64,000 nt of DNA from Wolfiporia cocos. Its lineage: Eukaryota > Basidiomycota > Agaricomycetes > Polyporales > Phaeolaceae. The notes beneath the pieces are model-generated. The model searched no databases and had not been told where the DNA came from. It worked only from the letters and a program-made list of their open reading frames with translations. Shown piece after piece: positions 8,402 to 44,050 of this stretch. Made by a program: the position numbers and the translations under genes. The first letter of the stretch is position 1. The number at the start of each line of letters is the position of its first letter. The stretch lies in NCBI GenBank assembly GCA_029448655.1, contig JACCLO010000006.1, positions 2,294,001 through 2,358,000 on the forward strand, given 5' to 3'.

Positions 8402-8402
8402 T

Positions 8403-8417
8403 CACCCCCATCTCTAG
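8403..8417 (-). promoter_or_regulatory. Polypurine tract
   Basis: In reverse complement CTAGAGATGGGGGTG lies directly before the 3' LTR start TGTCAC. The same 15 nt recur at 9363-9377 inside the element. Confidence 0.65.
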
Positions 8418-9362: not shown

Positions 9363-9377
9363 CACCCCCATCTCTAG
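9363..9377 (-). promoter_or_regulatory. Second, internal polypurine-tract copy
   Basis: An exact 15-nt duplicate of the 3' polypurine tract, 960 nt upstream in element orientation. This resembles the central polypurine tract of Ty1 or lentiviruses; it may instead be a remnant of an internal rearrangement. Confidence 0.45.
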
Positions 9378-10674
9378 CAACGCGTCTGCACGGTGAGAGG
9401 TGAGTCGATGAGGGCAGTAGGGTGGGAAAAAAGTCGTCATCATCAGCCCTCCTCGTCGGCGAGTCTACGCATGAGCTCCTCGCTCGGTACGCGTCATTGT
9501 TCATCCTCGGTCTGACCTCCTCAGTCGGTCCCCTTCCTCGTCATTGTACCTCGGGCTTCCCTCCTCGGGCTTCCCTCGGTTGTTGTCGCGCTATGCCCTT
9601 GTCTCTCGGGCTTTGCTCGTCTTGGGCCGTCAGTTCCTTCCTCCAACCCTACCCCCGGCCCGTTACGTTGTCCTCGACGGACCAGGACACTCCTGGGAAG
9701 GTGTTTTGACTGGGGTGGTGGGTGGGTTTCAATTTTCTGTGTTTTTTGTGTAGGTTATGTCCCCCGCCGAGGTGGTGAACTGTTGGTGTGGATGTACCCC
9801 CGTCCAGCGTGTGTCCGGCGGTGGTAGATACCCCCATCCAGTGTCGTCTTTGCCGTCACTGCGTTGTTGTAATGGGCCGTGCTTGTCGCGTTGTAAGTGG
9901 CCTTGTATGCGGCCAGCGTGGTGCTCGTGAGACGGTTCGTGGGTGCGCGTAAATGTATGGCCCAAGGCCTCTTGTGTAGGTGCAGTGGGGGCACCACCCC
10001 GTCTCGTGTGTATGCCTTTCGGTGTCATGAGTCCGCGCGTAGCGGGGTCAGCATTCCGCGCTGGTGGCGGTGTAGCGTTCCGCGCTGGTGGCGGCGTAGT
10101 GTTCTGTGCTGGTGGCGGTGTGTTGTCTTGCTTATGTTGTAGCGAGACGCGCACTGTCGATGCTTTGCAGCAAAGGTGGGTGGTGTGTGGGTGTGCCCGG
10201 GGCCTGTGAGGGCGGGTCGCGTTGGTGCGCTCCCTTTGCTGACTAAGCAGGGAGCGGGGCGCCGGTGTATTGATGCGCGGTGAGGTGACGTCGGCGTAGT
10301 GTGTGTTGGTCGCGGCGCGGCCGGCATGTTGTGATGCCGATCGCATCTGACCGGTGCATCTGTGGTGTATAGTGGGTTTTTATCAGTGTTATTCTGTTTT
10401 ATGTAAGTGGGTACTGCCCGGGGTTGTGCGTTGGGTGCACTGTTGTGTTTCTGTAAGTGGGAGTCTTCTGCTGTTGCTCGTCTAACGAGCCGCCTTGTGT
10501 GTCAAGGGAAATGCTGTTGTGTTGTAGGCGGGAGTCTACCGCCGTAGGTCGTAGCGACGAGGGTGCCGTGTCGGCGTCGTATCCCTGTCGTGCAAGAAGG
10601 TAACACGGGAGCTTATCTCCGCAGTAGCCTCAGGTTTAGACCAGCAGTCCAGATGGTAGTGGATTCTGAACTTA

Positions 10675-10828
10675 TGACAAGACCACCCTGGGCCCTCAGA
10701 GCTAACTGGGGTGAGGCGGGCAGAAGAATGCCAAATTCTGAAAACATAGCGCTCTACCCCCTATATATTAGCATGGCGTTTATACATATATATCCTAGCC
10801 ACCGGTAATGGCAATTTTGCCCGTGACA
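10675..10828 (-). repeat. 5' LTR of the LARD-like element
   Basis: 154-bp partner of 8239-8401, followed by the AACAT target duplication. The sequence just inside it (in reverse, TAAGTTCAGAATCC...) is the candidate primer-binding region, but I could not match it to a tRNA end. Confidence 0.85.
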
Positions 10829-10941
10829 AACATAGAGCTATCAAGGCTAGGAGCTTAAAATTTGATGAAAAAGTTTTGTTAGGCTGGAGTTTGGGGGAGC
10901 AAAAAACTCTTGGTATAATTAATACAATTGTAATCTAGCAA

Positions 10942-11018
10942 ATCCTTTTAGTGTAATGATATAATTCATGTATGCTCATTGCGTTGCTATGGCTTGCAGT
11001 TCGATTCCGTCTTGCGTA
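10942..11018 (+). ncRNA. tRNA-like Pol III unit, right end of copy C
   Basis: A-box-like TTAGTGTAATGATA near 10948, B-box-like CAGTTCGATTCCG near 10997-11009, then TTTTT at about 11020. It is directed toward the right end of the host element, the mirror of the left unit but derived from a different tRNA-like sequence. Confidence 0.55.
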
Positions 11019-11353
11019 ATTTTTAGAAATTAAGTCAGATTAATCTGCTCAACACAGATTAATCTTATTTCTCTGGCACTAGCTGAGCACTTCTGCGCAG
11101 CGCTAACGAAGCGCAGTTGCTAAATTAATCTCGGTGACTGAAACTCTACAGATCTGATTCTGCTTTTATGTGATTGTGTCTTCTTCTATGTACAAACCCA
11201 TCGGATTCTCAGCATGTCCAACAACGGATTCAGCAGGTTCCTTCCAGTCAAGAACAGGAACTCCACGTTCACACTGGACACTACAACATGTGGCCAAATC
11301 CCTATCATCTCGCTTCCCGAGCCTGCAACTGTTCCATCAGCAAAATGTGAGAT

Positions 11354-21509: not shown

Positions 21510-22739
21510 TCAGAGTGCCTCGGCGTCCTGTTCGTTGTAGATATCGCCGTTCCCGCTGAGGGACGGGGTCGTAGGAGTTCGCCATACGAAGTGTTGGCGG
21601 CATTCATTCTGTCGATGACCTGGTTGATTGAGCCCACAAGTTCTGCAAATATAATCGGGGCAGTCGAGGATCCAGTGGTTAGCGGAACCACATTGTCGAC
21701 ACGGCTGCTCAGGTGAGGGCCTCGCTGGTACCCGTAGGGAAGGGATATCGCGGAGGTATTCGTTATGTTGGTACCTCCAGTGGTGTGCGGCTCGGTGGAG
21801 GTTTCGTGCGGCCCACGTTGGTAGGGAGGCGGTGTCTCGTTCGTGCTCCCTCGCACCTCGCTCAAACTCCTCGCGGGTAATACTCTGCACTGAAGGAGAT
21901 CGTCGAATAGGTGGCGTGCTATTCACTCTTCGCTGTCGCGCTGGGGTAGCCCTAGGGCTCGTCGGGCGTGCAGGTGGTTCACGTCTCCCGTTGCCTCCCA
22001 TACCAGGAATACGTGGCGTCGGGTCTCTAACTCCTGTTTGGCGGGCCCTCTGAGTCTCGGTATGCAACGGAAATAATACTCTATCGCCCTCCATAAAATC
22101 AAACGGCCTTGCAACTCGGCGTCGTTCGTCGGGGGTGAAAAAGCAGGCGGGTCGTGGTGTGTATTCGGGTCGATTGGGAGCAACGTGCTCGCGATCCTCG
22201 AAGTCGTTGAGCGCGTGTCGTAGTCGGGCCGTCATAGTGGCGGCCAATCGGTCGATAAGTCTGTCGGTGAGTAGCTCGAGTCCCTCTCTCTGCGCTCTGA
22301 TCTGCCCCTCCATTTGGACGAGGTCCTCGGTGATGTTCTGGTACGAGCTGTAGACGTGGGTGAGGTCCTGCGCGATGTCGAAGAGGGCCGACCAGCCATC
22401 GGCTCGGCCAGCAAAAGGTCCCTTGGCCCTGTACCAGAGGAGGGCGTGTCTAATCTGCAGGTGCTGAGGGGAGTGCCTTCTTGGTGGCGTACCTCGCGGT
22501 CTGCCTTCTCGACGATCCGCATCACCAGGGGTTGTGGTACGGCGGGGGAGCTGGTGGCGAGTCGTCGACATACTATCACAGTCCTGTTTTCGAGTGTTGG
22601 GGTTGTCCTGACTCTCGTCCTGTGGTAGTCTTTTATCAGCTCCTTGGAATGCTCCAAGTTCGCCTCGTCTTCCCATGAGTTGTCGGCCGTGGCATAGCCT
22701 TTCCACTTGACGAAGTATTGATGTTTCTTTCTTTGCCAT
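21510..22739 (-). CDS. Third ORF of gypsy minus copy (zinc-knuckle protein)
   Basis: Same as the ORF at 42821-44050 in the other copy. The likely start is the internal ATG at 22571, because the upstream part is antiphase to the conserved chromodomain of pol. It ends with two Cys/His clusters (CRQCGSANHWILDC and CRTCGLNQPGHRQNEC). Function unknown; nucleic-acid binding is inferred from the knuckles. Confidence 0.6.
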   Translation of the reverse strand: MAKKETSILRQVERLCHGRQLMGRRGELGAFQGADKRLPQDESQDNPNTRKQDCDSMSTTRHQLPRRTTTPGDADRREGRPRGTPPRRHSPQHLQIRHALLWYRAKGPFAGRADGWSALFDIAQDLTHVYSSYQNITEDLVQMEGQIRAQREGLELLTDRLIDRLAATMTARLRHALNDFEDREHVAPNRPEYTPRPACFFTPDERRRVARPFDFMEGDRVLFPLHTETQRARQTGVRDPTPRIPGMGGNGRREPPARPTSPRATPARQRRVNSTPPIRRSPSVQSITREEFERGAREHERDTASLPTWAARNLHRAAHHWRYQHNEYLRDIPSLRVPARPSPEQPCRQCGSANHWILDCPDYICRTCGLNQPGHRQNECRQHFVWRTPTTPSLSGNGDIYNEQDAEAL

Positions 22740-25700
22740 CTGTCAGCCAAGATGGCTTCAACTTCGTATTCTTCTTGTCCCTTGATGACATCATCAGGTG
22801 GCGGCCGTAAGTAATTAGGTCCGTGCACCCTTGTTTCTTTGAATGGTTTTAGTAAGGCGGCGTGGAATACCGGATGAACTTTCCAGGTCGTTGGTAACTG
22901 CAGCCGGTATGTCGTGGGTCCCATCTTTTCTGTGATAGTGAAGGGTCCTTCCCTCTTTGGTGCCAGCTTGTTAGATTCGTAGGGGATAATTAGGTTCTTT
23001 GCGTCGAGCCAGACCTTGTCCCCTTTCTCAAGCTTCGGCAGTTCCCTGAGGAACCGTCCTGCCATTCTTTTCTGGGCTAATTCATGCGCGATGAATGCCA
23101 TCTTTCGCGCCTCTTTGATCTTCTTGATCCTGTCGACAGCTGCCGGGACGTTCCCTACTCGGTCATAGTCTGGGAATCCTCTCAGGATATATCCTAGAAT
23201 TGTTTCAAGTGGCGCAGGTCGGTTTTCAGTTCGTCTGGTGTTGTGTGCAAATTCGACGTCAGGTAGTCGTTGTACCCATTGAAAAGGGTCGTTCATGCAA
23301 TAGATACGAAGGTATACTTCGATTTGTTGATTCATCCTTTCCGTTTGTCCATCTGTCTGGGGGTGGTATGCTGTACTCATCGCTGACTCTGTCCCTTGCA
23401 GTCGGCATAACTCCTTGAAGAGCTTTGATGCGAACTGTGGTCCTCTGTCTGAAATGATTTTTTGGGGGATGCCGTACTGTGAATATATCTTCCGATGGAA
23501 TATTTCTGCAGCCCCTTCGCTCGTGATTGTTTTGTCGCATGGGGTGAGAGAGATGGCCTTGGATAGGCCATGGTCGACAATCACCATCATGGAGTCATAC
23601 TTTCCGACTCTTGGCAGGTTGGTGACAAAATCAACCGAGCACTGTGAGAAGGGGAGGGCGTCTTCCCGTGTCGGTATTGGCTGCAAAGGGGGTTTTAGCG
23701 GATTCCTATCAGGTTTCATCTGTTGACAGATTGCACAGCCCCGGACGTATTCCGCTATCATTGTTCCCATGTCAGGCCACCAAAAGTGGGTTTTAACCTG
23801 TACTGTTGTACCCCAGATCCCAGGGTGTCCGGCCGGGATCGTGTCGTGGTATTTTGAGATGACGTCCCGTCGAAGGCCCTCGTCCCTTGGCACGTACATC
23901 CTGCCCCTGTAGAGCAGTATCCCATCCGTTTGTTGCCATTCATCTGCAGTGGTTCTTGCGGGGAATTCGCCTGTGCCCCCTAGAGCGCGGATCGCCTGTT
24001 CTGCAGATTCGTCTCGATCGTTGGCGTTCTTGATTCGATCAATGATCGGGATCTGGATTGCGTGGACGACGAGTTCGTCTGGAATCATGGTGATTCCCTC
24101 GTTGTCTTCGTTGCTTTCATCCAGGTGGTACAACCTGGAAAGCGTGTCGGCCATGACTAATTTCCTTCCGGGGACGTGCTGCAATTTCAGGTCGAATTGC
24201 GAAAGGAATAGATGCCATCTCGCTTGTCGCCAATTTAGGCGCTGTGCGCTTCTCCAGTACGTCAGGTTCTGATGATCGCTTCGGATCAAGATCCGATGCG
24301 GTGCTCCTTCCAACAGGTGCCGCCATTCTTCTAATGCTCGGACTATTCCGAGTAGTTTGCGATCGTAGATTTCGTAGTTCCGTTCAGTTGATGTCAGGGA
24401 TTGTGAGAGATATCCCACCGGTCGTTCGCGCCCTGTTTCATCTATCTGTTTCAGTACTGCTCCTGTGGCGAACTGAGATGCGTCTGTTTCGAGGATGAAC
24501 GGTTTCTCCTTGTCTGGTGTTCCCAGTGCGGGCGCCGTCGTGAATGCTTTCTTCATGAATTCGAATACTTTCTGTTCTTTCTCCGTCCATTGGAACCCTG
24601 TCCCTGTGACCATTTTTGTGAGGTCTACCAAGGGTCGGGCGTGCGTAGAGTAGTGATCGATAAATTTCCGATAGAAGTTCGCAAATCCTAGGAAGGATCT
24701 GACTTCTTTGAGATTTCGGGGAGTTGGCCATTCTTTAATCCCATTGAGTTTCGCTGGGTCCATCTGGATATTTCCTGGGGTGATGACTAGTCCCAGAAAT
24801 TCGACTCTGTCGACACCGAAAGCGCATTTCTCGGGTTTCACGAAGAGGTGGTTATCCACCAATCTCTGAAGGATCCGCCGTTCCCGTTCCTTGTGTACTT
24901 TCTCGTCTTCTGAGAAAATGAGGATGTCGTCCATATAAACAAGCACCCATCCTTCGAGGATTTCTTCTTTCAGGATTTCGTTCATCATTGCCTGAAAGGT
25001 CCCGGGTGCATTGCACAATCCGAAAAACATAACCGTGGGCTCGTACAACCCTCGGTTTGTTTTGAAAGCCGCTTTCCATTCGTCTCCCTTTTTGATTCGC
25101 ACGTTGTTGTATCCCGCTCGGAGGTCCATTTTTGTGAAGATCTTTGCTCCTTTTAGCTTTTCCAGGAGCTCTGAGATCAGTGGCAAGGGATAGACGTTCT
25201 TTATCGTTCCTTCGTTCAGATATCGATAATCTTGACAGGGTCGTAGGCCGCTGTCTTTCTTTGGGACGAAAAAGAATGGTGACGCCATCGGGGATTTTGA
25301 AGGGACTATGAATCCCTTGGCCAAGTTTTCTTTTAGGAATTCGTCCAACGCCTGTTGCTCTTTAGGCGAGAGTGCATAGACTTTGCAGTCTTTCGGCACG
25401 AAATCGGGTTTTAACTCGATTGCGTGGTCCCATGGTCTCGACGGGGGGAACGCTGCTGCGGACTCCTTACTGAACACCTTGGCGAAGTCCAGTAGGTGTT
25501 TCGGGACCATCTCCTCAATCGTTCGTTCTGGTTCGGGGGTTTTTTGTGCGAATTCCTGGGATTTTGTCAGCGCTTTCCTGACAGCGTTGATGATTTGTAT
25601 CTTTGTTCGGAACTTCCTTCGCGTCTCCCCTTTCTTTCCTATGATCCTAGGGTTATCTTTTGCGAAGCGTCGGATCGCTTCGTATTCTTCGGGAGTATAG

Positions 25701-26520
25701 AGCCGCTGCGCTATTTCTTCTGGCTGATCCGTGGATCCGAACCCTTTCTCCCCTTGTTCTGTTTCCTCTAGGTCTTCGACCTCTAAGATGTCGGGGGTGA
25801 GGTGTTGTTCGAAAATTATCTGGGCTATTCGCATGCCCGGGATAATTCTATGCGCTTTGTCTGAGTAGTTGAAGACGATGGCTCCAACATCTCCTCGGTA
25901 GTCCGAATCTATGATTCCGGCTTGTACTACCAATCCGTGTCTGAGGGTGTTGCCTGATCGTCCGGCCAGCCTTCCATACGATCCCTTCGGGATCTTCATT
26001 TTTACTCCTGTGGAGACGAGTTTCCATCCTCCGGCGGGAATCTCGGTTTCTTCTGCGGCGTAAAGGTCATACCCCACAGCTTCTTGGGTTCCCTTGTTGG
26101 AATTTTTCCTTCTGGGGCAACTACCATCTCCACCGTATCCATTCGGATTGTGGCTTCCTGTTTCTTTTCTTCTGCCCCTAGTATTGATCGTACATCGACT
26201 GTTTGGTCCTTCCAGTCGATTGTGGGGTTTTCGTCTTTCAGCCATCCATACCCTAGAATCATATTTTCTGTTCCGATTGATCCTACGAGGAATCGGACTT
26301 TTCGCGTTTTCTGGGTCTTCGGATATCGTAGTAGTATGGTAGCTTCTCGGTCTATTCGCCCATCTTTGTTTTCTGTTCCGTCAACATTTTTGACGATGAT
26401 CGGGTTCTTCAAGGGTTGCGTGGGCACCTTGTATTTTTCTACCACTCTGCTGTGAATCAGGTTCGACATTGCTCCTGAGTCGATTAGTGCATTGCACTTC
26501 ACGGGTTTTGCCAGCGTCAT
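22232..26520 (-). pseudogene. pol: gypsy pol, minus copy, 1-bp deletion between protease and dUTPase
   Basis: The protease part begins at the ATG at 26520. A GGG run at 26091-26093, against GGGG in the other copy, shifts the frame after codon 142, so protease runs into a short out-of-frame tail ending at 26002. Downstream, dUTPase, RT (YMDD), RNase H, integrase and chromodomain remain open to 22232. Unless ribosomes slip back, no complete pol is made from this copy. Confidence 0.85.
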
Positions 26521-26609
26521 GATTACCGGGATGAAGAGGGATCGATTCTTCTCGAACGAGGTAATTAAATGCGCTGCTTTTTCGGAGGGTAAGACCGTGG
26601 GCTTCCCTC

Positions 26610-28442
26610 CTAGGCAAAATCCTGTTCTTCTACGAGCTGTGCTAGGAGCTCGGGGTTCTTGGCTTTCAGGGCCCTAATTGCTGTGACCGCTCTGTTAGCG
26701 GTGATATATTCAGTCTCTTCCTCAGAGACTTCTTCAATGCGAGCTTCTTGCTCGGCTTCTTCTTCTTCGGTCTTTCGAGTAGTCCGCCTAGGGCGGGCTG
26801 GCTTCCTCGGCCTCTTCGGGCAGTCTCGCGACATATGCCCTGGCTGATGACAGGTGAAACATTTTCCCTTCTTGATGTGATCGTCCCTTTCCTGGGTGGT
26901 CATTCGATCTACATCCATCGCATTCGGATCTTTCGGTGCGGTTGTCTGTGGGGCACTAGTGCGTCCGTTATTCTGGTTTGAGGCTTGCCAAGCCTTTTTC
27001 TTGACAAACGGTTTGTCCCGTTTCAAGAATATCTTGTATGTATTTTCATAATATGAGGCAGCGGACTGCCATTCATCGATGGTCGCTGGTAGTGGCCGAA
27101 CGCCGATGATGTATCGGGTCGTATGTTCAGGTAACCCTTTCTCGAAGAGGGTTATGAGCAACGCGTTTCCGTCCGCGCTGTATCGATCGTACTGGGCCTT
27201 TCCGGCCAAGTTGTTGAACTCGGTGATATAATCATCGATGTCCTTCTTGTCCTGGGTTACGTCCAGGATTTTCTTCCACGCCTTCTGTACCTCTTCGATG
27301 GCTCCGAAGGCTTTCTGGAAGTCTGCATCAAACTGTGCAAGACTGGGCGGGAAGAATCGTTTCGTCTGGGGGTTCGTATAAACCCGGTGATAATTCTGTT
27401 TCCATTGGCCCGTTTTCCCCTTGTTCGAAATATAAGAGAGGATAAAGATCACTCTCTGAACGTCGTTCTGGAATGACGTTTCGTACATCGTAAACCAGGA
27501 ATTGCACTGGTTTATGAAGTTCTGCATGTCGGATCGTTCCCCGTCAAATACGTCTGGGGGATTGATTTTTATCATTGGGGGTCGATAGTACGGGTTCGGC
27601 GCCGGAGGTTGAGGCTGCGGCGCATTCGGTGGTGGAGGCCCTCCTGGGGGTCCTCCTCCTCCCGGGTTTCCTCCACCCGGGTTTCCTCCGGGGTTCCCTG
27701 GGTTCCCTCCAGGGTTTCCTCCTCCGGGGTTCGCGGGGATTCCTCCTCCGAGTCCTCCAGGAGGAGGGGCATTCCCTCCTCCGAGTCCGAAGTTTCCTCC
27801 CAGTCCTCCTCCACTTGTACCTGCAGCGGTTCGTCCAAATAGGCCTGAAGGCCATGTTCCTGGGTTTGTTGTTCCCATTCCTCCGCTTGGGCTAGTCCAA
27901 GACGGATTTCCTCCGCTACCCATTCCGGGTGCGTTCTGTGGGGGGCTTCCAAAGAGATTTGCTCCTCCAGCCATAGACCCAATCCCACTCTGCGCAAAAG
28001 CAGATATAAATCCTGGAGGGTCCTGTCCTCTGGTCTGGCTGTTATCTGTTCCTGTAAAGTTTCCAGGATTTCTCCCATCATCTCCGATGCGCTCAACTCC
28101 TGCCATTCCTGTGGCGCCCGAAGGCTGATTCGTATTTCCATCGGCATCGAAGGTTCTGTTGATGGTTTCGGTTTCGGTCAACGTCGCGGTTGACATCGGA
28201 GGGATTTCTCCGAATCGTTCGAACGCTTCACGCGTTATTTCCCAAGCGGTCGTTCCTGCGGAGGGGTATACTTGTACCCACTTCGATGCCCTATCTTCTC
28301 TTGGAATGACAACAATTCCTCCGTTGTTACGGAAGGCTCCAATGGTGTCAGTCCACTCGTATCGGTTGAGTCTGAAGACTCCCTGAATGTCCTCGGGCAA
28401 GAGTTCAATCAGTCGTGCTGGGAATTCTGGTCCAAATATCAT
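26610..28442 (-). CDS. gag: gypsy gag, minus copy (610 aa)
   Basis: Intact and, as read, identical to the plus-copy protein: Gly/Pro/Asn-rich centre, a capsid-like Ty3-type domain (PPDVFDGERSDMQNFINQC...) and one CCHC knuckle CFTCHQPGHMSRDC near residue 528. Forms the virus-like particle core in this family. Confidence 0.9.
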   Translation of the reverse strand: MIFGPEFPARLIELLPEDIQGVFRLNRYEWTDTIGAFRNNGGIVVIPREDRASKWVQVYPSAGTTAWEITREAFERFGEIPPMSTATLTETETINRTFDADGNTNQPSGATGMAGVERIGDDGRNPGNFTGTDNSQTRGQDPPGFISAFAQSGIGSMAGGANLFGSPPQNAPGMGSGGNPSWTSPSGGMGTTNPGTWPSGLFGRTAAGTSGGGLGGNFGLGGGNAPPPGGLGGGIPANPGGGNPGGNPGNPGGNPGGGNPGGGGPPGGPPPPNAPQPQPPAPNPYYRPPMIKINPPDVFDGERSDMQNFINQCNSWFTMYETSFQNDVQRVIFILSYISNKGKTGQWKQNYHRVYTNPQTKRFFPPSLAQFDADFQKAFGAIEEVQKAWKKILDVTQDKKDIDDYITEFNNLAGKAQYDRYSADGNALLITLFEKGLPEHTTRYIIGVRPLPATIDEWQSAASYYENTYKIFLKRDKPFVKKKAWQASNQNNGRTSAPQTTAPKDPNAMDVDRMTTQERDDHIKKGKCFTCHQPGHMSRDCPKRPRKPARPRRTTRKTEEEEAEQEARIEEVSEEETEYITANRAVTAIRALKAKNPELLAQLVEEQDFA

Positions 28443-29198: not shown

Positions 29199-29504
29199 TG
29201 TACAGGATACAACCGAGACCGAAGGAAGGCTCGATGATGTTAAGCTAAGCACTCACCTTTCTCATATGCGCTTAGATATGTGCAAGACAGTAGTCTAGCC
29301 AAGGCATCTAAACGAGGAACATGTAGATGCGCGCGAGGAAGCATTGATACTAGCTTCTTCCGTTGGGTGTTCCGGTCAGTAGAGTTTCAGTCAATTATCT
29401 TAATCTGCCAACTGCCCTTCGCTTAAGAAATTGCAGTTGCGAGCTAGGTTTGCATGCAGATTAATCTGCTAACTGCGGCAGATTAATCTACTGCGACAAT
29501 AAAA

Positions 29505-29591
29505 TGGCACATCCCGGACTCGAACCAAGGACCTTAACGCAGATGAGAATAACAGCATCGCAGCATAATTAGCCAACTGAGCTACGGTGCA
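29505..29591 (-). ncRNA. tRNA-like unit, left end of copy A
   Basis: Minus strand: A box TAGCTCAGTTGGC (29572-29584), B box GGTTCGAGTCC (29516-29526, canonical), then TTTT at the 3' side. The anticodon region is long, as if an intron or filler is present; acceptor pairing is poor. Confidence 0.65.
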
Positions 29592-29880
29592 ACTGGTGGT
29601 GCCCCCATTTTAAGCAATATATAGAGTATTTTGTAAACTTCATTTTCGCAGTTTAACATCTTCCATAACACAAATACAAATGAATCTGCCTCTAAAGACC
29701 TGTGATTCCAGTGTATTCAGCTTTCCCATGGTGAGTTGCTCCAGGTCAAGCATGGTGAATCAAGCTACCACTATCATTGATTTCTGTATGCTTGTTGTAG
29801 CAGTTAGTTGCCTTGATGATTTGCGAAAATTGTGTGTAAAATTTGTGTTATATATATTTTAATTGGTCAATGGTACCTGT

Positions 29881-29968
29881 TGCCACAATGGCTCAGTCGG
29901 CTAATTATGCTGCGATGCTGTTATTCTCAGTTGCGCTAAGGTCTTTGGTTCGAGTCCGGGATGTGCCA
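29881..29968 (+). ncRNA. tRNA-like unit, right end of copy A
   Basis: Plus strand: A box TGGCTCAGTCGGC near 29889, B box GGTTCGAGTCC at 29948-29958, then TTTT at 29969. Nearly identical to the left unit in inverted orientation. Confidence 0.65.
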
Positions 29969-30103
29969 TTTTATTGTCGCAGTAGATTAATCTGCCGCAG
30001 TTAGCAGATTAATCTGCGTGCAAACCTAGCTCGCAACTGCGATTTCTTAAGCAAAGGGCAGTTGGCAGATTAAGATAATTGACTGAAGTCCCTCCCGGTC
30101 AGT

Positions 30104-30374: not shown

Positions 30375-33300
30375 ATGGCTCTACGTTGCATTGACTGTGG
30401 CAGAGAAGACTTCTACAACAAGCATGGTCTTGAGAGACACCAAGGCAAGTGCCCGAAAAGTGGTAGAGTCCTCAAGGATGCCATCAAAAAGCGGAAAATG
30501 CGACAAAAAGATGTTACTCAAAGAAAATTGCTGAGAACCGAGGACAGTGGAGGTGTACTAGCACTGCGCGAAGAGCTAAGGTTTGAGGAGGAGATATCTG
30601 AGGTTCGTTGACCAATTAATTACACACGCAACTAACTCTCGCACAGATGCCAGAAGCATCTTCGTCTACCGCAAATGATACCTTCGTATACTCTATAAGT
30701 AGGACAGGGCGAAAACGTCGAAGACCCACATATCTAGTCGACTGCGTGCCCACAACCGAGGAGGGCGTAGCTCTGCAGGTGCCTGGAGCGGTTACTCGAC
30801 TAGACATTTCCCCGCCCACATCCCCTGCTCACGCAAATGTCCCGGATTCTACTTCAACAACTCCCGAAAATAGCACCGTAGATTCGTCAAGTACATCCTC
30901 ATGCTATGATACAAAACCTGACAGGTTTGGTATCTTCCAACGATATTCCGCGACCCCAAAGCATATTCCCCCAGATGCGTCGTCACTAAGCGACTTGTGC
31001 GACTCTCCTGTACTTCAGAATCCAAACCACGGTGCTGCATTATCTGTGTGACGTGTGGGTCCCCCAAATGCGCGCGATGCGCACAATCCATTTCATCCAT
31101 TCTCGAACTCCTCTGTGTATAGGTTCATGAAGTGGGATCTCGATTCATCTGGTGCCATGTCAAGGAGCAAGTCACAGAGCCTTCTAGACAACGTCCTGTT
31201 TGCTCCTGATTTTGAGCTGTCTGACTTGAGAGGGCTGAATGTTGGACGAGAATGGGAATGGGTTGAATCCTCAGAAACCAGCGACCCAGAATCTTCCGCT
31301 GCAGATGGATAGAATAAAAACTCTGTCATGGTCAGACTGCCAAAAGAGAAGGAAAAATGGGCCGACGAGAGCGAAGCGCCGCAACTGGAGGTTCCGGATG
31401 TATACCATCGTAGCCTTCTGGATATTATTAAGACAGTCTGCCGAGATCCTGAGGCAAGCTCCTACCAGTGGATCCCTTACAAGCAGTTCTGGAGACGACC
31501 GAAGAATTCTTCCGACGGGACGGTTGATGAGGAGTCGGCAGAAGTGGACGACATCCGTGTTTACTCAGAACTGTTCAACTCTGATGCTATGCTCCTGGAG
31601 TACGAGAAAATACACTCCCAACCTCCTGACCCAAATGATCCTGCGGATACCGAAGTTGCAATTGTGCCGATCATGCTATGGTCAGATTCTACTCACCTCA
31701 ACAGCTTTGGTTCCGCTTCTCTGTGGCCCATCTACGCATTTTTCGGTTTTATTACATACGCAACAAGCCCACTTCCTTTTGCGCACATCACCTCGCCTAT
31801 GTGCTATCTGTAAGTATTCGCTTTTTCTGTCTATCGTGTATTTTATTAATGTGGTCATATCTCAGCTTCCTGACTTCATCCAAGATAGATATCAATCACT
31901 TTACAACACAGCTGCAACCGTCGACGTACTACGATTTTGCAAACGTGAGCTCATGAATGCCATATGGCTGCTCATCCTCAATCCAGAGTTCATGAAGGCA
32001 TATGAACATGGCATTTTAGAAAAATGTGGTGATGGTATATTACGCTGCCTATTCCCTCGATTTTTCACATATTCAGCTGATTATCCTGAGAAGTAAGGAC
32101 TGAAGTTTACAATTGATCGTGTCTCGTATACTAATATGAATTGATTACAGGATATTACTTGCGTGCATTCGCTACCTGGCTCAATGCCCTTGCCCGCGCT
32201 GCCTGATACAAAAGGCAGATATTTCTGAGATGGGCACGCCTGCAGACATGGAGTGTCGAAATATACTTCGCGTCGACACTACTTCTATTCAGAATTTGAT
32301 CAATGGCGCGAGGAGGCCAGTATTCAGGAAAGGGTTTGCGCTTAATAGCAAGAAAATTACCAAGATTCTCGACCCAAAATCACTGGTGACGACTAGGGTG
32401 AGCGATGCGATGACCATAAAAAATTACATGCTCATGGGTGTCTAGAGTGCATTTTCTCAACGACTTTCAAAGTTTGGCTTCAACTTCTACTCAATGTTTG
32501 TGCCTGACCTTCTGCATGAATTTGAGCTTGGTGTGTGGAAGGCTGTATTCACACATCTACTGCGTATTTTGTATGCAGAAGGCAAAGACAGAATCCAAAT
32601 TTTGAACAAAAGGTACGGAATTTATGGTCGTTGTATGAATATGCTCAAGTATACAACCTAGGTTCCGCCTTGTACCCACATTCGGCCGCGACACAATTCG
32701 TCGTTTCACGAACAATGTGTCTGCAATGAAGCAGCTGGCTGCAAGGGACTTTGAAGATATTTTACAGGTGTGTTACAAAATATGTTATTTGTATTTCCTC
32801 GCTCACCCCCGCTCTAGTGCATCATTCCCGTCCTCGATATGTTATTGCCACCAGAACATAACAAAGTGGTCCTCACGTCGCTGTTCGAGCTGGCTACATG
32901 GCACGCCCTTGCGAAACTATGCTTACACACGGAGGATACCCTCATGGTCTTTACTCGCGCGACCGAGTCTCTCGGGGAATCACTCCGTGCATTCGTCAAT
33001 ACTACTTGCAAAGCCTATGATACACAGGAGTTGCCTAAAGAGCATGCTGCTTGCGGCAGGCGTACTGCAGCAATGCGCGAGCAAGGTTCCGTTGTCAGCA
33101 ATAGAAAAAAATCAAGGCGAGGTAAAGGGAAGGGGAAAGCGACAGACACGAACGCCAGTGGTGGAATGGTGAACGAGTTATCGAATGGGCCGAAGATTAA
33201 GAAACTAAATCTGTCAACTTACAGGCTCCATGCGCTCACCGATTATCCGCAGGCCATCCGACAGTTTGGCACGACGGATAATTATAGCACTCAAGTCGTA

Positions 33301-37116: not shown

Positions 37117-38949
37117 ATGATATTTGGACCAGAATTCCCAGCACGACTGATTGAACTCTTGCCCGAGGACATTCAGGGAGTCTTCAGACTCAACCGATAC
37201 GAGTGGACTGACACCATTGGAGCCTTCCGTAACAACGGAGGAATTGTTGTCATTCCAAGAGAAGATAGGGCATCGAAGTGGGTACAAGTATACCCCTCCG
37301 CAGGAACGACCGCTTGGGAAATAACGCGTGAAGCGTTCGAACGATTCGGAGAAATCCCTCCGATGTCAACCGCGACGTTGACCGAAACCGAAACCATCAA
37401 CAGAACCTTCGATGCCGATGGAAATACGAATCAGCCTTCGGGCGCCACAGGAATGGCAGGAGTTGAGCGCATCGGAGATGATGGGAGAAATCCTGGAAAC
37501 TTTACAGGAACAGATAACAGCCAGACCAGAGGACAGGACCCTCCAGGATTTATATCTGCTTTTGCGCAGAGTGGGATTGGGTCTATGGCTGGAGGAGCAA
37601 ATCTCTTTGGAAGCCCCCCACAGAACGCACCCGGAATGGGTAGCGGAGGAAATCCGTCTTGGACTAGCCCAAGCGGAGGAATGGGAACAACAAACCCAGG
37701 AACATGGCCTTCAGGCCTATTTGGACGAACCGCTGCAGGTACAAGTGGAGGAGGACTGGGAGGAAACTTCGGACTCGGAGGAGGGAATGCCCCTCCTCCT
37801 GGAGGACTCGGAGGAGGAATCCCCGCGAACCCCGGAGGAGGAAACCCTGGAGGGAACCCAGGGAACCCCGGAGGAAACCCGGGTGGAGGAAACCCGGGAG
37901 GAGGAGGACCCCCAGGAGGGCCTCCACCACCGAATGCGCCGCAGCCTCAACCTCCGGCGCCGAACCCGTACTATCGACCCCCAATGATAAAAATCAATCC
38001 CCCAGACGTATTTGACGGGGAACGATCCGACATGCAGAACTTCATAAACCAGTGCAATTCCTGGTTTACGATGTACGAAACGTCATTCCAGAACGACGTT
38101 CAGAGAGTGATCTTTATCCTCTCTTATATTTCGAACAAGGGGAAAACGGGCCAATGGAAACAGAATTATCACCGGGTTTATACGAACCCCCAGACGAAAC
38201 GATTCTTCCCGCCCAGTCTTGCACAGTTTGATGCAGACTTCCAGAAAGCCTTCGGAGCCATCGAAGAGGTACAGAAGGCGTGGAAGAAAATCCTGGACGT
38301 AACCCAGGACAAGAAGGACATCGATGATTATATCACCGAGTTCAACAACTTGGCCGGAAAGGCCCAGTACGATCGATACAGCGCGGACGGAAACGCGTTG
38401 CTCATAACCCTCTTCGAGAAAGGGTTACCTGAACATACGACCCGATACATCATCGGCGTTCGGCCACTACCAGCGACCATCGATGAATGGCAGTCCGCTG
38501 CCTCATATTATGAAAATACATACAAGATATTCTTGAAACGGGACAAACCGTTTGTCAAGAAAAAGGCTTGGCAAGCCTCAAACCAGAATAACGGACGCAC
38601 TAGTGCCCCACAGACAACCGCACCGAAAGATCCGAATGCGATGGATGTAGATCGAATGACCACCCAGGAAAGGGACGATCACATCAAGAAGGGAAAATGT
38701 TTCACCTGTCATCAGCCAGGGCATATGTCGCGAGACTGCCCGAAGAGGCCGAGGAAGCCAGCCCGCCCTAGGCGGACTACTCGAAAGACCGAAGAAGAAG
38801 AAGCCGAGCAAGAAGCTCGCATTGAAGAAGTCTCTGAGGAAGAGACTGAATATATCACCGCTAACAGAGCGGTCACAGCAATTAGGGCCCTGAAAGCCAA
38901 GAACCCCGAGCTCCTAGCACAGCTCGTAGAAGAACAGGATTTTGCCTAG
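37117..38949 (+). CDS. gag: gypsy gag, plus copy (610 aa)
   Basis: Capsid and nucleocapsid precursor. After an N-terminal domain (FRLNRYEWTDTIGAFRNNGG) comes a long Gly/Pro/Asn-rich linker (about residues 150-285), a Ty3-type capsid domain from PPDVFDGERSDMQNF to about residue 470, and one CCHC knuckle CFTCHQPGHMSRDC at about 528-541, then a Lys/Arg- and Glu-rich tail. The start ATG at 37117 lies 47 nt after the 5' LTR. The stop lies 63 nt into an overlap with the pol frame, which opens at 38886 in the -1 frame. Confidence 0.9.
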   Translation: MIFGPEFPARLIELLPEDIQGVFRLNRYEWTDTIGAFRNNGGIVVIPREDRASKWVQVYPSAGTTAWEITREAFERFGEIPPMSTATLTETETINRTFDADGNTNQPSGATGMAGVERIGDDGRNPGNFTGTDNSQTRGQDPPGFISAFAQSGIGSMAGGANLFGSPPQNAPGMGSGGNPSWTSPSGGMGTTNPGTWPSGLFGRTAAGTSGGGLGGNFGLGGGNAPPPGGLGGGIPANPGGGNPGGNPGNPGGNPGGGNPGGGGPPGGPPPPNAPQPQPPAPNPYYRPPMIKINPPDVFDGERSDMQNFINQCNSWFTMYETSFQNDVQRVIFILSYISNKGKTGQWKQNYHRVYTNPQTKRFFPPSLAQFDADFQKAFGAIEEVQKAWKKILDVTQDKKDIDDYITEFNNLAGKAQYDRYSADGNALLITLFEKGLPEHTTRYIIGVRPLPATIDEWQSAASYYENTYKIFLKRDKPFVKKKAWQASNQNNGRTSAPQTTAPKDPNAMDVDRMTTQERDDHIKKGKCFTCHQPGHMSRDCPKRPRKPARPRRTTRKTEEEEAEQEARIEEVSEEETEYITANRAVTAIRALKAKNPELLAQLVEEQDFA

Positions 38950-39038
38950 GAGGGAAGCCCACGGTCTTACCCTCCGAAAAAGCAGCGCATTTAATTACCT
39001 CGTTCGAGAAGAATCGATCCCTCTTCATCCCGGTAATC

Positions 39039-42000
39039 ATGACGCTGGCAAAACCCGTGAAGTGCAATGCACTAATCGACTCAGGAGCAATGTCGAACCT
39101 GATTCACAGCAGAGTGGTAGAAAAATACAAGGTGCCCACGCAACCCTTGAAGAACCCGATCATCGTCAAAAATGTTGACGGAACAGAAAACAAAGATGGG
39201 CGAATAGACCGAGAAGCTACCATACTACTACGATATCCGAAGACCCAGAAAACGCGAAAAGTCCGATTCCTCGTAGGATCAATCGGAACAGAAAATATGA
39301 TTCTAGGGTATGGATGGCTGAAAGACGAAAACCCCACAATCGACTGGAAGGACCAAACAGTCGATGTACGATCAATACTAGGGGCAGAAGAAAAGAAACA
39401 GGAAGCCACAATCCGAATGGATACGGTGGAGATGGTAGTTGCCCCAGAAGGAAAAATTCCAACAAGGGGAACCCAAGAAGCTGTGGGGTATGACCTTTAC
39501 GCCGCAGAAGAAACCGAGATTCCCGCCGGAGGATGGAAACTCGTCTCCACAGGAGTAAAAATGAAGATCCCGAAGGGATCGTATGGAAGGCTGGCCGGAC
39601 GATCAGGCAACACCCTCAGACACGGATTGGTAGTACAAGCCGGAATCATAGATTCGGACTACCGAGGAGATGTTGGAGCCATCGTCTTCAACTACTCAGA
39701 CAAAGCGCATAGAATTATCCCGGGCATGCGAATAGCCCAGATAATTTTCGAACAACACCTCACCCCCGACATCTTAGAGGTCGAAGACCTAGAGGAAACA
39801 GAACAAGGGGAGAAAGGGTTCGGATCCACGGATCAGCCAGAAGAAATAGCGCAGCGGCTCTATACTCCCGAAGAATACGAAGCGATCCGACGCTTCGCAA
39901 AAGATAACCCTAGGATCATAGGAAAGAAAGGGGAGACGCGAAGGAAGTTCCGAACAAAGATACAAATCATCAACGCTGTCAGGAAAGCGCTGACAAAATC
40001 CCAGGAATTCGCACAAAAAACCCCCGAACCAGAACGAACGATTGAGGAGATGGTCCCGAAACACCTACTGGACTTCGCCAAGGTGTTCAGTAAGGAGTCC
40101 GCAGCAGCGTTCCCCCCGTCGAGACCATGGGACCACGCAATCGAGTTAAAACCCGATTTCGTGCCGAAAGACTGCAAAGTCTATGCACTCTCGCCTAAAG
40201 AGCAACAGGCGTTGGACGAATTCCTAAAAGAAAACTTGGCCAAGGGATTCATAGTCCCTTCAAAATCCCCGATGGCGTCACCATTCTTTTTCGTCCCAAA
40301 GAAAGACAGCGGCCTACGACCCTGTCAAGATTATCGATATCTGAACGAAGGAACGATAAAGAACGTCTATCCCTTGCCACTGATCTCAGAGCTCCTGGAA
40401 AAGCTAAAAGGAGCAAAGATCTTCACAAAAATGGACCTCCGAGCGGGATACAACAACGTGCGAATCAAAAAGGGAGACGAATGGAAAGCGGCTTTCAAAA
40501 CAAACCGAGGGTTGTACGAGCCCACGGTTATGTTTTTCGGATTGTGCAATGCACCCGGGACCTTTCAGGCAATGATGAACGAAATCCTGAAAGAAGAAAT
40601 CCTCGAAGGATGGGTGCTTGTTTATATGGACGACATCCTCATTTTCTCAGAAGACGAGAAAGTACACAAGGAACGGGAACGGCGGATCCTTCAGAGATTG
40701 GTGGATAACCACCTCTTCGTGAAACCCGAGAAATGCGCTTTCGGTGTCGACAGAGTCGAATTTCTGGGACTAGTCATCACCCCAGGAAATATCCAGATGG
40801 ACCCAGCGAAACTCAATGGGATTAAAGAATGGCCAACTCCCCGAAATCTCAAAGAAGTCAGATCCTTCCTAGGATTTGCGAACTTCTATCGGAAATTTAT
40901 CGATCACTACTCTACGCACGCCCGACCCTTGGTAGACCTCACAAAAATGGTCACAGGGACAGGGTTCCAATGGACGGAGAAAGAACAGAAAGTATTCGAA
41001 TTCATGAAGAAAGCATTCACGACGGCGCCCGCACTGGGAACACCAGACAAGGAGAAACCGTTCATCCTCGAAACAGACGCATCTCAGTTCGCCACAGGAG
41101 CAGTACTGAAACAGATAGATGAAACAGGGCGCGAACGACCGGTGGGATATCTCTCACAATCCCTGACATCAACTGAACGGAACTACGAAATCTACGATCG
41201 CAAACTACTCGGAATAGTCCGAGCATTAGAAGAATGGCGGCACCTGTTGGAAGGAGCACCGCATCGGATCTTGATCCGAAGCGATCATCAGAACCTGACG
41301 TACTGGAGAAGCGCACAGCGCCTAAATTGGCGACAAGCGAGATGGCATCTATTCCTTTCGCAATTCGACCTGAAATTGCAGCACGTCCCCGGAAGGAAAT
41401 TAGTCATGGCCGACACGCTTTCCAGGTTGTACCACCTGGATGAAAGCAACGAAGACAACGAGGGAATCACCATGATTCCAGACGAACTCGTCGTCCACGC
41501 AATCCAGATCCCGATCATTGATCGAATCAAGAACGCCAACGATCGAGACGAATCTGCAGAACAGGCGATCCGCGCTCTAGGGGGCACAGGCGAATTCCCC
41601 GCAAGAACCACTGCAGATGAATGGCAACAAACGGATGGGATACTGCTCTACAGGGGCAGGATGTACGTGCCAAGGGACGAGGGCCTTCGACGGGACGTCA
41701 TCTCAAAATACCACGACACGATCCCGGCCGGACACCCTGGGATCTGGGGTACAACAGTACAGGTTAAAACCCACTTTTGGTGGCCTGACATGGGAACAAT
41801 GATAGCGGAATACGTCCGGGGCTGTGCAATCTGTCAACAGATGAAACCTGATAGGAATCCGCTAAAACCCCCTTTGCAGCCAATACCGACACGGGAAGAC
41901 GCCCTCCCCTTCTCACAGTGCTCGGTTGATTTTGTCACCAACCTGCCAAGAGTCGGAAAGTATGACTCCATGATGGTGATTGTCGACCATGGCCTATCCA

Positions 42001-43328
42001 AGGCCATCTCTCTCACCCCATGCGACAAAACAATCACGAGCGAAGGGGCTGCAGAAATATTCCATCGGAAGATATATTCACAGTACGGCATCCCCCAAAA
42101 AATCATTTCAGACAGAGGACCACAGTTCGCATCAAAGCTCTTCAAGGAGTTATGCCGACTGCAAGGGACAGAGTCAGCGATGAGTACAGCATACCACCCC
42201 CAGACAGATGGACAAACGGAAAGGATGAATCAACAAATCGAAGTATACCTTCGTATCTATTGCATGAACGACCCTTTTCAATGGGTACAACGACTACCTG
42301 ACGTCGAATTTGCACACAACACCAGACGAACTGAAAACCGACCTGCGCCACTTGAAACAATTCTAGGATATATCCTGAGAGGATTCCCAGACTATGACCG
42401 AGTAGGGAACGTCCCGGCAGCTGTCGACAGGATCAAGAAGATCAAAGAGGCGCGAAAGATGGCATTCATCGCGCATGAATTAGCCCAGAAAAGAATGGCA
42501 GGACGGTTCCTCAGGGAACTGCCGAAGCTTGAGAAAGGGGACAAGGTCTGGCTCGACGCAAAGAACCTAATTATCCCCTACGAATCTAACAAGCTGGCAC
42601 CAAAGAGGGAAGGACCCTTCACTATCACAGAAAAGATGGGACCCACGACATACCGGCTGCAGTTACCAACGACCTGGAAAGTTCATCCGGTATTCCACGC
42701 CGCCTTACTAAAACCATTCAAAGAAACAAGGGTGCACGGACCTAATTACTTACGGCCGCCACCTGATGATGTCATCAAGGGACAAGAAGAATACGAAGTT
42801 GAAGCCATCTTGGCTGACAGATGGCAAAGAAAGAAACATCAATACTTCGTCAAGTGGAAAGGCTATGCCACGGCCGACAACTCATGGGAAGACGAGGCGA
42901 ACTTGGAGCATTCCAAGGAGCTGATAAAAGACTACCACAGGACGAGAGTCAGGACAACCCCAACACTCGAAAACAGGACTGTGATAGTATGTCGACGACT
43001 CGCCACCAGCTCCCCCGCCGTACCACAACCCCTGGTGATGCGGATCGTCGAGAAGGCAGACCGCGAGGTACGCCACCAAGAAGGCACTCCCCTCAGCACC
43101 TGCAGATTAGACACGCCCTCCTCTGGTACAGGGCCAAGGGACCTTTTGCTGGCCGAGCCGATGGCTGGTCGGCCCTCTTCGACATCGCGCAGGACCTCAC
43201 CCACGTCTACAGCTCGTACCAGAACATCACCGAGGACCTCGTCCAAATGGAGGGGCAGATCAGAGCGCAGAGAGAGGGACTCGAGCTACTCACCGACAGA
43301 CTTATCGACCGATTGGCCGCCACTATGA
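39039..43328 (+). CDS. pol: gypsy pol: protease-dUTPase-RT-RNase H-integrase-chromodomain (1429 aa)
   Basis: First ATG 39039; the frame is open from 38886, so fusion to gag by a -1 shift is possible. Protease LIDSGA (residues 12-17). dUTPase about 145-265 with all five motifs: AVGYDLYA, GRLAGRSG, GIIDSDYRGDVG, RIAQIIFEQ, GFGSTD. RT about 380-560 with VYMDDIL near 528. RNase H with ETDASQF near 680. Integrase with HPG..C-X2-C (CAICQQMK), the triad Asp in VDFVTNLP, Asp in SDRGPQF and Glu in QTERMNQQ, and a GPF module. Chromodomain EEYEVEAILADRW...YFVKWKGY...NSWEDEANL near 1247-1300, which in chromoviruses targets integration to marked chromatin. The last 110 residues (Ser/Thr/Arg-rich) overlap ORF3 and look like the weaker of the two frames. 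Confidence 0.93.
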   Translation: MTLAKPVKCNALIDSGAMSNLIHSRVVEKYKVPTQPLKNPIIVKNVDGTENKDGRIDREATILLRYPKTQKTRKVRFLVGSIGTENMILGYGWLKDENPTIDWKDQTVDVRSILGAEEKKQEATIRMDTVEMVVAPEGKIPTRGTQEAVGYDLYAAEETEIPAGGWKLVSTGVKMKIPKGSYGRLAGRSGNTLRHGLVVQAGIIDSDYRGDVGAIVFNYSDKAHRIIPGMRIAQIIFEQHLTPDILEVEDLEETEQGEKGFGSTDQPEEIAQRLYTPEEYEAIRRFAKDNPRIIGKKGETRRKFRTKIQIINAVRKALTKSQEFAQKTPEPERTIEEMVPKHLLDFAKVFSKESAAAFPPSRPWDHAIELKPDFVPKDCKVYALSPKEQQALDEFLKENLAKGFIVPSKSPMASPFFFVPKKDSGLRPCQDYRYLNEGTIKNVYPLPLISELLEKLKGAKIFTKMDLRAGYNNVRIKKGDEWKAAFKTNRGLYEPTVMFFGLCNAPGTFQAMMNEILKEEILEGWVLVYMDDILIFSEDEKVHKERERRILQRLVDNHLFVKPEKCAFGVDRVEFLGLVITPGNIQMDPAKLNGIKEWPTPRNLKEVRSFLGFANFYRKFIDHYSTHARPLVDLTKMVTGTGFQWTEKEQKVFEFMKKAFTTAPALGTPDKEKPFILETDASQFATGAVLKQIDETGRERPVGYLSQSLTSTERNYEIYDRKLLGIVRALEEWRHLLEGAPHRILIRSDHQNLTYWRSAQRLNWRQARWHLFLSQFDLKLQHVPGRKLVMADTLSRLYHLDESNEDNEGITMIPDELVVHAIQIPIIDRIKNANDRDESAEQAIRALGGTGEFPARTTADEWQQTDGILLYRGRMYVPRDEGLRRDVISKYHDTIPAGHPGIWGTTVQVKTHFWWPDMGTMIAEYVRGCAICQQMKPDRNPLKPPLQPIPTREDALPFSQCSVDFVTNLPRVGKYDSMMVIVDHGLSKAISLTPCDKTITSEGAAEIFHRKIYSQYGIPQKIISDRGPQFASKLFKELCRLQGTESAMSTAYHPQTDGQTERMNQQIEVYLRIYCMNDPFQWVQRLPDVEFAHNTRRTENRPAPLETILGYILRGFPDYDRVGNVPAAVDRIKKIKEARKMAFIAHELAQKRMAGRFLRELPKLEKGDKVWLDAKNLIIPYESNKLAPKREGPFTITEKMGPTTYRLQLPTTWKVHPVFHAALLKPFKETRVHGPNYLRPPPDDVIKGQEEYEVEAILADRWQRKKHQYFVKWKGYATADNSWEDEANLEHSKELIKDYHRTRVRTTPTLENRTVIVCRRLATSSPAVPQPLVMRIVEKADREVRHQEGTPLSTCRLDTPSSGTGPRDLLLAEPMAGRPSSTSRRTSPTSTARTRTSPRTSSKWRGRSERRERDSSYSPTDLSTDWPPL

Positions 43329-44050
43329 CGGCCCGACTACGACACGCGCTCAACGACTTCGAGGATCGCGAGCACGTTGCTCCCAATCGACCCGAATACA
43401 CACCACGACCCGCCTGCTTTTTCACCCCCGACGAACGACGCCGAGTTGCAAGGCCGTTTGATTTTATGGAGGGCGATAGAGTATTATTTCCGTTGCATAC
43501 CGAGACTCAGAGGGCCCGCCAAACAGGAGTTAGAGACCCGACGCCACGTATTCCTGGTATGGGAGGCAACGGGAGACGTGAACCACCTGCACGCCCGACG
43601 AGCCCTAGGGCTACCCCAGCGCGACAGCGAAGAGTGAATAGCACGCCACCTATTCGACGATCTCCTTCAGTGCAGAGTATTACCCGCGAGGAGTTTGAGC
43701 GAGGTGCGAGGGAGCACGAACGAGACACCGCCTCCCTACCAACGTGGGCCGCACGAAACCTCCACCGAGCCGCACACCACTGGAGGTACCAACATAACGA
43801 ATACCTCCGCGATATCCCTTCCCTACGGGTACCAGCGAGGCCCTCACCTGAGCAGCCGTGTCGACAATGTGGTTCCGCTAACCACTGGATCCTCGACTGC
43901 CCCGATTATATTTGCAGAACTTGTGGGCTCAATCAACCAGGTCATCGACAGAATGAATGCCGCCAACACTTCGTATGGCGAACTCCTACGACCCCGTCCC
44001 TCAGCGGGAACGGCGATATCTACAACGAACAGGACGCCGAGGCACTCTGA
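42821..44050 (+). CDS. Third ORF of the gypsy element, zinc-knuckle protein
   Basis: Overlaps the end of pol by about 500 nt in the -1 frame; the likely start is ATG 42989, giving about 353 aa. A helical region (LTHVYSSYQNITEDL..QMEGQIRAQREGLELLTDRL) suggests a coiled coil; the C-terminus has C-X2-C-X4-H-X4-C (CRQCGSANHWILDC) and C-X2-C-X6-H-X4-C (CRTCGLNQPGHRQNEC). It has no signal peptide or membrane segment, so it is not env-like. I recall similar ORFs after pol in other mushroom gypsy elements but no assigned function. Confidence 0.65.
   Translation: MAKKETSILRQVERLCHGRQLMGRRGELGAFQGADKRLPQDESQDNPNTRKQDCDSMSTTRHQLPRRTTTPGDADRREGRPRGTPPRRHSPQHLQIRHALLWYRAKGPFAGRADGWSALFDIAQDLTHVYSSYQNITEDLVQMEGQIRAQREGLELLTDRLIDRLAATMTARLRHALNDFEDREHVAPNRPEYTPRPACFFTPDERRRVARPFDFMEGDRVLFPLHTETQRARQTGVRDPTPRIPGMGGNGRREPPARPTSPRATPARQRRVNSTPPIRRSPSVQSITREEFERGAREHERDTASLPTWAARNLHRAAHHWRYQHNEYLRDIPSLRVPARPSPEQPCRQCGSANHWILDCPDYICRTCGLNQPGHRQNECRQHFVWRTPTTPSLSGNGDIYNEQDAEAL

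Follow-up and report, generated by a model that had tools for sequence, protein, structure and literature searches.

A family of small DNA transposons in the genome of Wolfiporia cocos carries, near most of its ends, an outward-facing RNA polymerase III (Pol III) promoter, whose position and direction are kept from one subfamily to the next while its sequence changes. The family was analyzed starting from a 64,000-nucleotide stretch of contig JACCLO010000006.1 (hereafter the window) and followed through the whole assembly. A typical arm contains all the parts of a type-2 Pol III promoter directed outward, and from sequence we infer Pol III factor binding, boundary function and mobilization by a KDZ transposase. 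Our leading interpretation, to which we give slightly less than an even chance, is that these are mostly non-autonomous, KDZ-mobilized DNA transposons in which the cassettes recruit TFIIIC, TFIIIB and Pol III and act as portable boundaries.

The genome searched for end sequences comprises 64,431,438 bases in 76 contigs (64.4 Mb). The left end, TAGAGTTTCAGT, gave 604 matches (305 and 299 by strand) against 16 (6 and 10) for its reversed control, and the right end, GAGGGACTTCAGT when read inward, gave 555 (267 and 288) against 2 (1 and 1). The total is several hundred small copies and fragments in this fungal genome. The termini, GTAGAGTTTCAGT...ACTGAAGTCCCTC, form an imperfect 13-bp inverted repeat. 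Pairing of ends in the fetched loci and in the window yielded 52 pairings, 48 of which span 586 to 721 bp, the short subfamilies being mostly about 640 to 720 bp long. Such elements have the features of MITEs: they are short, non-coding (coding potential being judged by length alone), bounded by inverted repeats, flanked by a target duplication and present in many copies.

The length of the target duplication was determined on 50 of the 52 pairings, two overlapping pairings at locus L020 being left out. The 7 bases ahead of a G and the 7 bases after CCCTC matched at all seven positions in 36 of the 50 and at six of seven in 8. Since this G precedes TAGAG in 48 of 50 pairings, and a putative eighth duplicated base agrees in only 8 of the 36 fully matched pairings, which is the chance level, the element begins GTAGAG and its target duplication is 7 bp; L093 is a single element with an 8-bp duplication. 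The preliminary description of this DNA had proposed 8-bp duplications, perfect in two elements, and both of these cases are a 7-bp duplication plus the fixed G.

One element in the window belongs to subfamily F1, and its start, previously placed at 29381, is corrected to 29379/29380. It is flanked by two copies of CCGGTCA (7 bp; 29372–29378 and 30095–30101). Its left terminus GTAGAGTTTCAGT (29379–29391, plus strand) is followed by a subterminal arm of palindromic AGATTAATCT repeats (29392–29500) that extends to the T-run of the left Pol III unit. This unit reads on the minus strand and consists of the T-run TTTT (29501–29504), a B box GGTTCGAGTCC (29516–29526, 16.5 bits), an A box TAGCTCAGTTG (29574–29584, 15.3 bits) and an upstream TATA-like motif (29617–29623). 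The right unit reads on the plus strand, with a TATA-like motif upstream (29850–29857), an A box TGGCTCAGTCG (29889–29899, 13.8 bits), the same B box GGTTCGAGTCC (29947–29957, 16.5 bits) and a T-run (29969–29972), and the right terminus ACTGAAGTCCCTC lies at 30082–30094 (plus strand).

Three further elements of the family were found in the window. An F2 element (60351–61030, plus orientation) has the subterminal repeat AGATGCATCT and a duplication matching at six of seven positions; its left unit lies on the minus strand (A box 60511–60521, B box 60464–60474, T-run 60443–60446) and its right unit on the plus strand (A box 60835–60845, B box 60879–60889, T-run 60922–60928). An F3 element in minus orientation (7883–11149), flanked by the 7-bp duplication AGATCTG (7876–7882 and 11150–11156), has its first unit on the minus strand (A box 8062–8072, B box 8003–8013, T-run 7984–7987) and its second on the plus strand (A box 10949–10959, B box 10998–11008, T-run 11020–11024). 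It is interrupted by a nested LTR-type element (8239–10828) with repeats of about 154 to 163 bp and a 5-bp duplication, AACAT, within which no ORF of at least 230 amino acids is listed. The fourth is a decayed F3 copy (51918–52945, plus orientation) with a left end only. Its left unit is weak (13.7 bits). A solo-LTR-like insertion of about 405 bp (52474–52878), which has a 5-bp duplication, CAATC, interrupts its right unit, and that unit scores 4.3. The arms of the elements at 7883–11148, 29380–30094 and 60352–61030 score 21.3 to 31.8 bits, both arms facing outward. Thus, the earlier view that four elements share both ends, and that each has two outward units made of an A box, a B box and a T-run, holds for three of them and fails for the copy at 51919–52945. 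The palindromic subterminal repeats are subfamily-specific (AGATTAATCT in F1 and F5, AGATGCATCT in F2; window 29392–29500 and 60365–60440) and vary as if transposase-binding motifs had changed along with the units.

Promoter units were scored with A-box and B-box matrices built from 24 distinct tRNA genes of the same genome, among 30 fetched; these came from at least 49 Rfam tRNA matches, 63 of 2530 candidates having been scored. When a T-run is required, scores of the 24 real tRNA genes range from 23.8 to 34.3 bits. We applied the matrices to 48 short elements (38 F1, 6 F2, 3 F3 and the F1-like element L093), leaving out the four of the 52 pairings that exceed 760 bp (L024, the two overlapping L020 pairings and the 3266-bp element of the window). 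An outward promoter of at least 20 bits was found in 45 of the 48 left arms and 43 of the 48 right arms, and an inward one in none of either. By subfamily, left and right arms reached this score in 37 and 36 of 38 F1 elements, 5 and 3 of 6 F2 elements, whose right units are weak, 3 and 3 of 3 F3 elements, and 0 and 1 of 1 for L093. The maximum over 162 tiles of 350 bp taken from the rest of the window was 8.4 bits when both strands were scored (324 scores). Moreover, none of 300 shuffles reached the observed score for any arm with a scoreable unit: both arms of the window F1 element, the window F2 element and the F3 copy L103, the right arm of L093 and, in the F2 copy L018, the left arm. In both L018 and L093 the opposite arm has no scoreable unit. 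When all fetched sequence was scanned at 19 bits or more, 84 variants of the F1-motif unit were removed by motif and tRNA-gene matches by position before inspection, and the remainder consisted of units of other subfamilies, one tRNA gene met again and one match without a T-run.

A sample picked regardless of units gave a similar picture. Taking exact matches in genome order, we examined the first 30 left ends and the first 30 right ends, of which 22 and 25, respectively, show an outward unit of at least 15 bits; combined, 47 of 60 ends have an outward unit and none an inward one, the 60 ends not being 60 independent elements because both ends of some elements are included. The other 13 ends have no unit at 15 bits. 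Five of these (L015, L021, L041, L044 and L047) have units under the threshold or without a T-run, three (L006, L024 and L050) appear deleted or interrupted, and two (L017 and L026) are apparent chance matches to the end sequence. The last three, L011, L014 and L043 (each at position 1501, reading inward), are family ends with F3-like next bases and no unit within 300 bp, and may be either longer relatives that lack units or, like L115, fragments of an end that adjoin other sequence. The general picture given in the preliminary description, of a transposon family with outward Pol III-type units whose layout is kept while their sequences change, therefore withstands the shuffles and the orientation counts, with the reservation that copies lacking units do exist, in part as decayed or interrupted units and as two chance ends.

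These units had also been called tRNA-like, a term that suits their promoter boxes and not their identity. ARAGORN found no tRNA. Rfam gave no match at the gathering cut-off in the window, and even at E values up to 5 it reported no tRNA, either there or in 20 loci. When searched alone against the Rfam tRNA model, the F1 left unit reached 12.9 bits (cut-off 29) and the F2 left unit gave no tRNA match. The lowest-energy folds of eight example units are not cloverleaf-like, whereas that of a real tRNA folded alongside is. True tRNA genes are thus rejected by ARAGORN, by the Rfam covariance model and by the folds. The units have the A box, the B box at tRNA-like spacing and the T-run of type-2 Pol III promoters, and by sequence they look like cassettes of that type. 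A high-scoring tRNA at C1:2265560 (L017/L078) appears to be an ordinary tRNA gene that adjoins a chance match to the end sequence.

We distinguished five subfamilies, with units of at least four unlike kinds placed at comparable distances from the end. F1 is marked by long inverted arms with AGATTAATCT repeats. The repeats of F2 are AGATGCATCT, and its two units are unlike each other; F3 adds another unlike pair; F4 (L012, L028 and L111–L114) combines an F1-like end with a different unit; and in F5 (L007 and L039) such an end is joined to an F1-type unit that has diverged, L007 having a left-type end on both sides. Unit similarity reaches a z-score of 13 or more only within F1/F5 and elsewhere is at most 5.6, partly owed to the common boxes. 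Hence the claim that units differ between elements under a constant layout was borne out, all of these unlike units facing outward. The tRNA genes of the host closest to the units are L083 (F1, F5 and F2-left), L088 (F2-right), L082 (F3-left), L076 (F3-right) and L087 (F4), from which we claim no firm tRNA origin because the scores are modest and only 24 distinct tRNAs were compared. The interior of F1 occurs in both orientations relative to its two unlike termini (23 versus 12 of 38 elements, 3 being unclear; for example, L095, L104 and L105 versus L002, L005 and L029), which suggests inversion between the long arms.

The geometry of the arms was measured on 100 arms with a unit of at least 17 bits, a T-run not being required: left and right arms, respectively, of F1 (37 and 37 of 38), L093 (0 and 1 of 1), F2 (6 and 4 of 6), F3 (3 and 3 of 3) and F5 (1 of 1 and 2 of 2), and 6 of 6 left arms of F4. 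From the end inward, the order is the 13-bp terminus, subterminal repeats, the T-run at about 80 to 135 bp, the B box, the A box and a TATA-like motif. The B box most often lies 122 to 157 bp from the terminus (about 120 to 160 bp), and the spacing of the A and B boxes is most often 44 to 64 bp. The T-run is usually TTTT and lies mostly 95 to 135 bp from the end; it comes as close as 79 bp in an F2 right arm and is missing from one F2 left arm. A first T-run of four T is also found in 9 of the 24 real tRNA genes. TATA or ATAT occurs in the expected upstream stretch of 97 of the 100 units, compared to 18.8% of random 34-base windows, 74 of the 100 units being F1; a TATA-like motif is present in 17 of the 24 real tRNA genes over a slightly narrower stretch.

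Which transposase moves the family is suggested by F4. The F4 arm motif has 15 matches in the genome, 13 of which are F4 left ends. Downstream of four of these 13 (C7:764793, C7:664399, C12:3908408 and C23:4462814), in the same orientation, lies a CxC2 domain at a distance of 9.9 to 16.6 kb (9.9 to 10.9 kb in three of the four), with a KDZ domain just beyond; the other nine have no CxC2–KDZ link. The number of links expected within 20 kb is 0.1 if matches are uniform (P of at least four = 4e-6) and 1.0 if they are clustered tenfold (P = 0.02). An outward unit is present in all six F4 left ends read and scores 17.1 to 27.0 bits in the four KDZ-linked ones. With the F4 unit and arm motif as queries, no right arm of a KDZ-linked F4 element was recognized, and, among the ends listed, none of the six CxC2 matches on C1–C3 has a facing end within 20 kb. 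The genome contains 129 matches to the KDZ domain and 48 to the hAT dimerization domain (PF05699). On this sequence evidence the family is probably mobilized by a KDZ-type transposase, which is a likelier partner than a hAT transposase. Eight near-equal KDZ matches (251.5 to 254.3 bits, for example C1:4630026 and C2:2133193) suggest a recently active KDZ family; among the ends listed, no end of the transposon family adjoins the near-equal copies on C1 and C2.

The family had initially been described as hAT-like, an assignment that our results do not support. Of the ten hAT matches on C1–C3, three have a facing end no more than 1.4 kb away, among the first 100 places listed for each end, and the association does not hold at the two ends read: L115 is an end fragment of about 19 bases beside another repeat, and L116 is an ordinary F1 arm whose element of about 715 bp would end before the hAT match. 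The third such match is at C2:3012684. The 7-bp duplication also speaks against membership. The terminus TAGAG would fit the hAT terminal rule, and the other end, GAGGG, would not. hAT transposons and their MITEs resemble the family in having subterminal repeats and differ in that the duplication here is 7 bp, not 8, and that no hAT-coding element with these ends was recognized at the ends read. Duplications of 7 bp are reported for hAT7 of rusts (PMC12730594). The repeat beside the L115 fragment (L115:18–136) has 39 matches in the genome, nearly all of which lack the end bases and start at base 16 to 29; it abuts a fragment of the family's right end on C2, and one copy of it lies in the window (58636–58752, minus strand).

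How could such cassettes serve a transposon? By recruiting TFIIIC, TFIIIB and Pol III, they would act as portable boundaries that keep the terminal 100 bp or so, the stretch where transposase binding is expected, clear of nucleosomes, heterochromatin and DNA methylation, and that stop Pol II read-through, which would yield hairpin RNA from the inverted arms. Selection would retain factor binding rather than an RNA product, because subfamilies carry unlike units in similar geometry. We favor the boundary reading because promoter and position are kept and the RNA sequence is not. In fission yeast, TFIIIC sites and a Pol III-dependent barrier are described as holding back heterochromatin (PMC4502379, PMC2040200). 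It is also conceivable, and we would rate it as falling somewhat short of an even chance, that this lineage has made host Pol III and TFIIIC a working part of its ends, its paired outward tRNA-type promoters being repeatedly replaced by unrelated ones with position and direction kept, so that insulated or paired ends could escape silencing and be excised.

A first alternative, which we consider unlikely while taking it seriously, is that the units are neutral passengers, that is, tRNA-like sequences that a few ancestral copies happened to capture and that were carried along, the double layout resulting from homogenization of the inverted arms. The two F1 units are indeed near-identical and lie inside a long inverted repeat, so one capture would suffice there, and F1 copies are much alike, which leaves the promoters little time to decay. 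Among six F4 copies, moreover, there is no box-specific conservation, variation being seen at 5 of 22 columns in the boxes and at 29 of 131 elsewhere in the unit (p = 0.64); as F4 copies drift, any constraint would act on the lineages that spread. Unlike units in F1/F5, in both arms of F2, in both arms of F3 and in F4, all outward and at comparable distances, are not what this alternative predicts. Arm homogenization offers no explanation for F2 and F3, where left and right units differ (z of 3.9 and 3.0). The TATA-like motif and T-run are usually retained, and comparison between subfamilies picks out the A box and the T-run. In seven units of F1, L093 and F5 (seven sequences, two of which are consensus arms), pairwise identity averages 0.91 for the A box, 0.77 for the B box and 1.00 for CATTTTATT, compared to 0.65 between the boxes and 0.47 upstream. 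Boxes differ from the between-box and upstream columns with p = 1.8e-6, a value that takes no account of relatedness and treats shared gaps as identical positions, and the outer arm, at 0.79, is conserved as well as the B box. This between-subfamily comparison supports constraint on the A box and T-run at the sequence level.

The boundary reading must also be weighed against the rather improbable alternative that Pol III RNAs of about 100 nt are themselves the product and act in trans as a guide, a decoy, a transposase cofactor or a source of small RNAs. Promoters together with T-runs about 80 to 135 bp inside the end would delimit short RNAs, and both F1 arms would yield nearly identical RNA. 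Such an RNA sequence would nonetheless not be common to the subfamilies, the folds of the eight examples are unlike, and no Rfam family exceeds its cut-off in the window. Lower again in our estimate, and improbable, is a role in end pairing, in which TFIIIC/condensin-type clustering of the two B-box sites would aid synapsis of the transposon ends. Clustering of tRNA genes by TFIIIC and condensin is established in yeasts, and each element offers two sites at comparable distances from its ends. Against this role stand the ends without a unit and the KDZ-linked F4 element, on which a single unit was seen, its other end not having been located. Chance boxes within AT-rich repeats, for which nothing beyond the general looseness of box motifs could be argued, are refuted by the background tiles (0 of 324), the shuffles (0 of 300 per scoreable arm) and the inward scores (0 of 48 on each side), and we give this alternative virtually no credence.

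The family can be compared with several known systems. Internal A and B boxes are the Pol III promoter of tRNA-derived SINEs, which the units resemble in this respect; the present elements differ from SINEs in having no 3′ tail or retro-type ends, a fixed 7-bp duplication, and two outward units between DNA-transposon termini. Cassandra TRIM retrotransposons are mobile elements with built-in 5S-type Pol III promoters; there, a 5S-derived promoter resides in an LTR retrotransposon, whereas here paired outward type-2 promoters reside in a DNA transposon. The Kyakuja KDZ elements of Agaricomycetes share with the family a reported 7-bp target duplication (PMC12730594), and CxC2 and KDZ domains follow 4 of 13 F4 left ends here. 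We describe the family as probably KDZ-mobilized without filing it as Kyakuja, because Kyakuja termini are reported as CA..TG without inverted repeats (PMC12730594), in contrast with the GTAGAG..CCCTC termini here, which form an imperfect 13-bp inverted repeat and are accompanied by Pol III units; the word tRNA is absent from the main text of that report. The TFIIIC/Pol III barriers of fission yeast, as presented in PMC4502379 and PMC2040200, would rest on the same principle, B-box/TFIIIC sites edging a silenced region; those are host loci, whereas the sites described here are mobile, lie near both transposon ends and have a putative role. At the level of titles and listings in the open-licence literature, we found no description of a DNA transposon whose ends carry paired Pol III promoters.

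Should the cassettes function as proposed, a cut-and-paste element could bring its own chromatin boundary, and hundreds of candidate TFIIIC sites would have been spread across a fungal genome. The family would then provide a simple mini-element system for asking how transposon ends stay unsilenced.

The window contains other mobile elements. Two Ty3/gypsy-type retrotransposons lie in opposite orientation (21510–28442, minus strand; 37117–44050, plus strand), and two of their three ORFs agree in size. In the minus-strand copy, the pol ORF encodes a dUTPase domain ahead of the reverse transcriptase, as well as a chromodomain close to the end of the ORF. An ORF at 31239–32096 (plus strand) has a weak match to a Plavaka transposase, under the curated cut-off.
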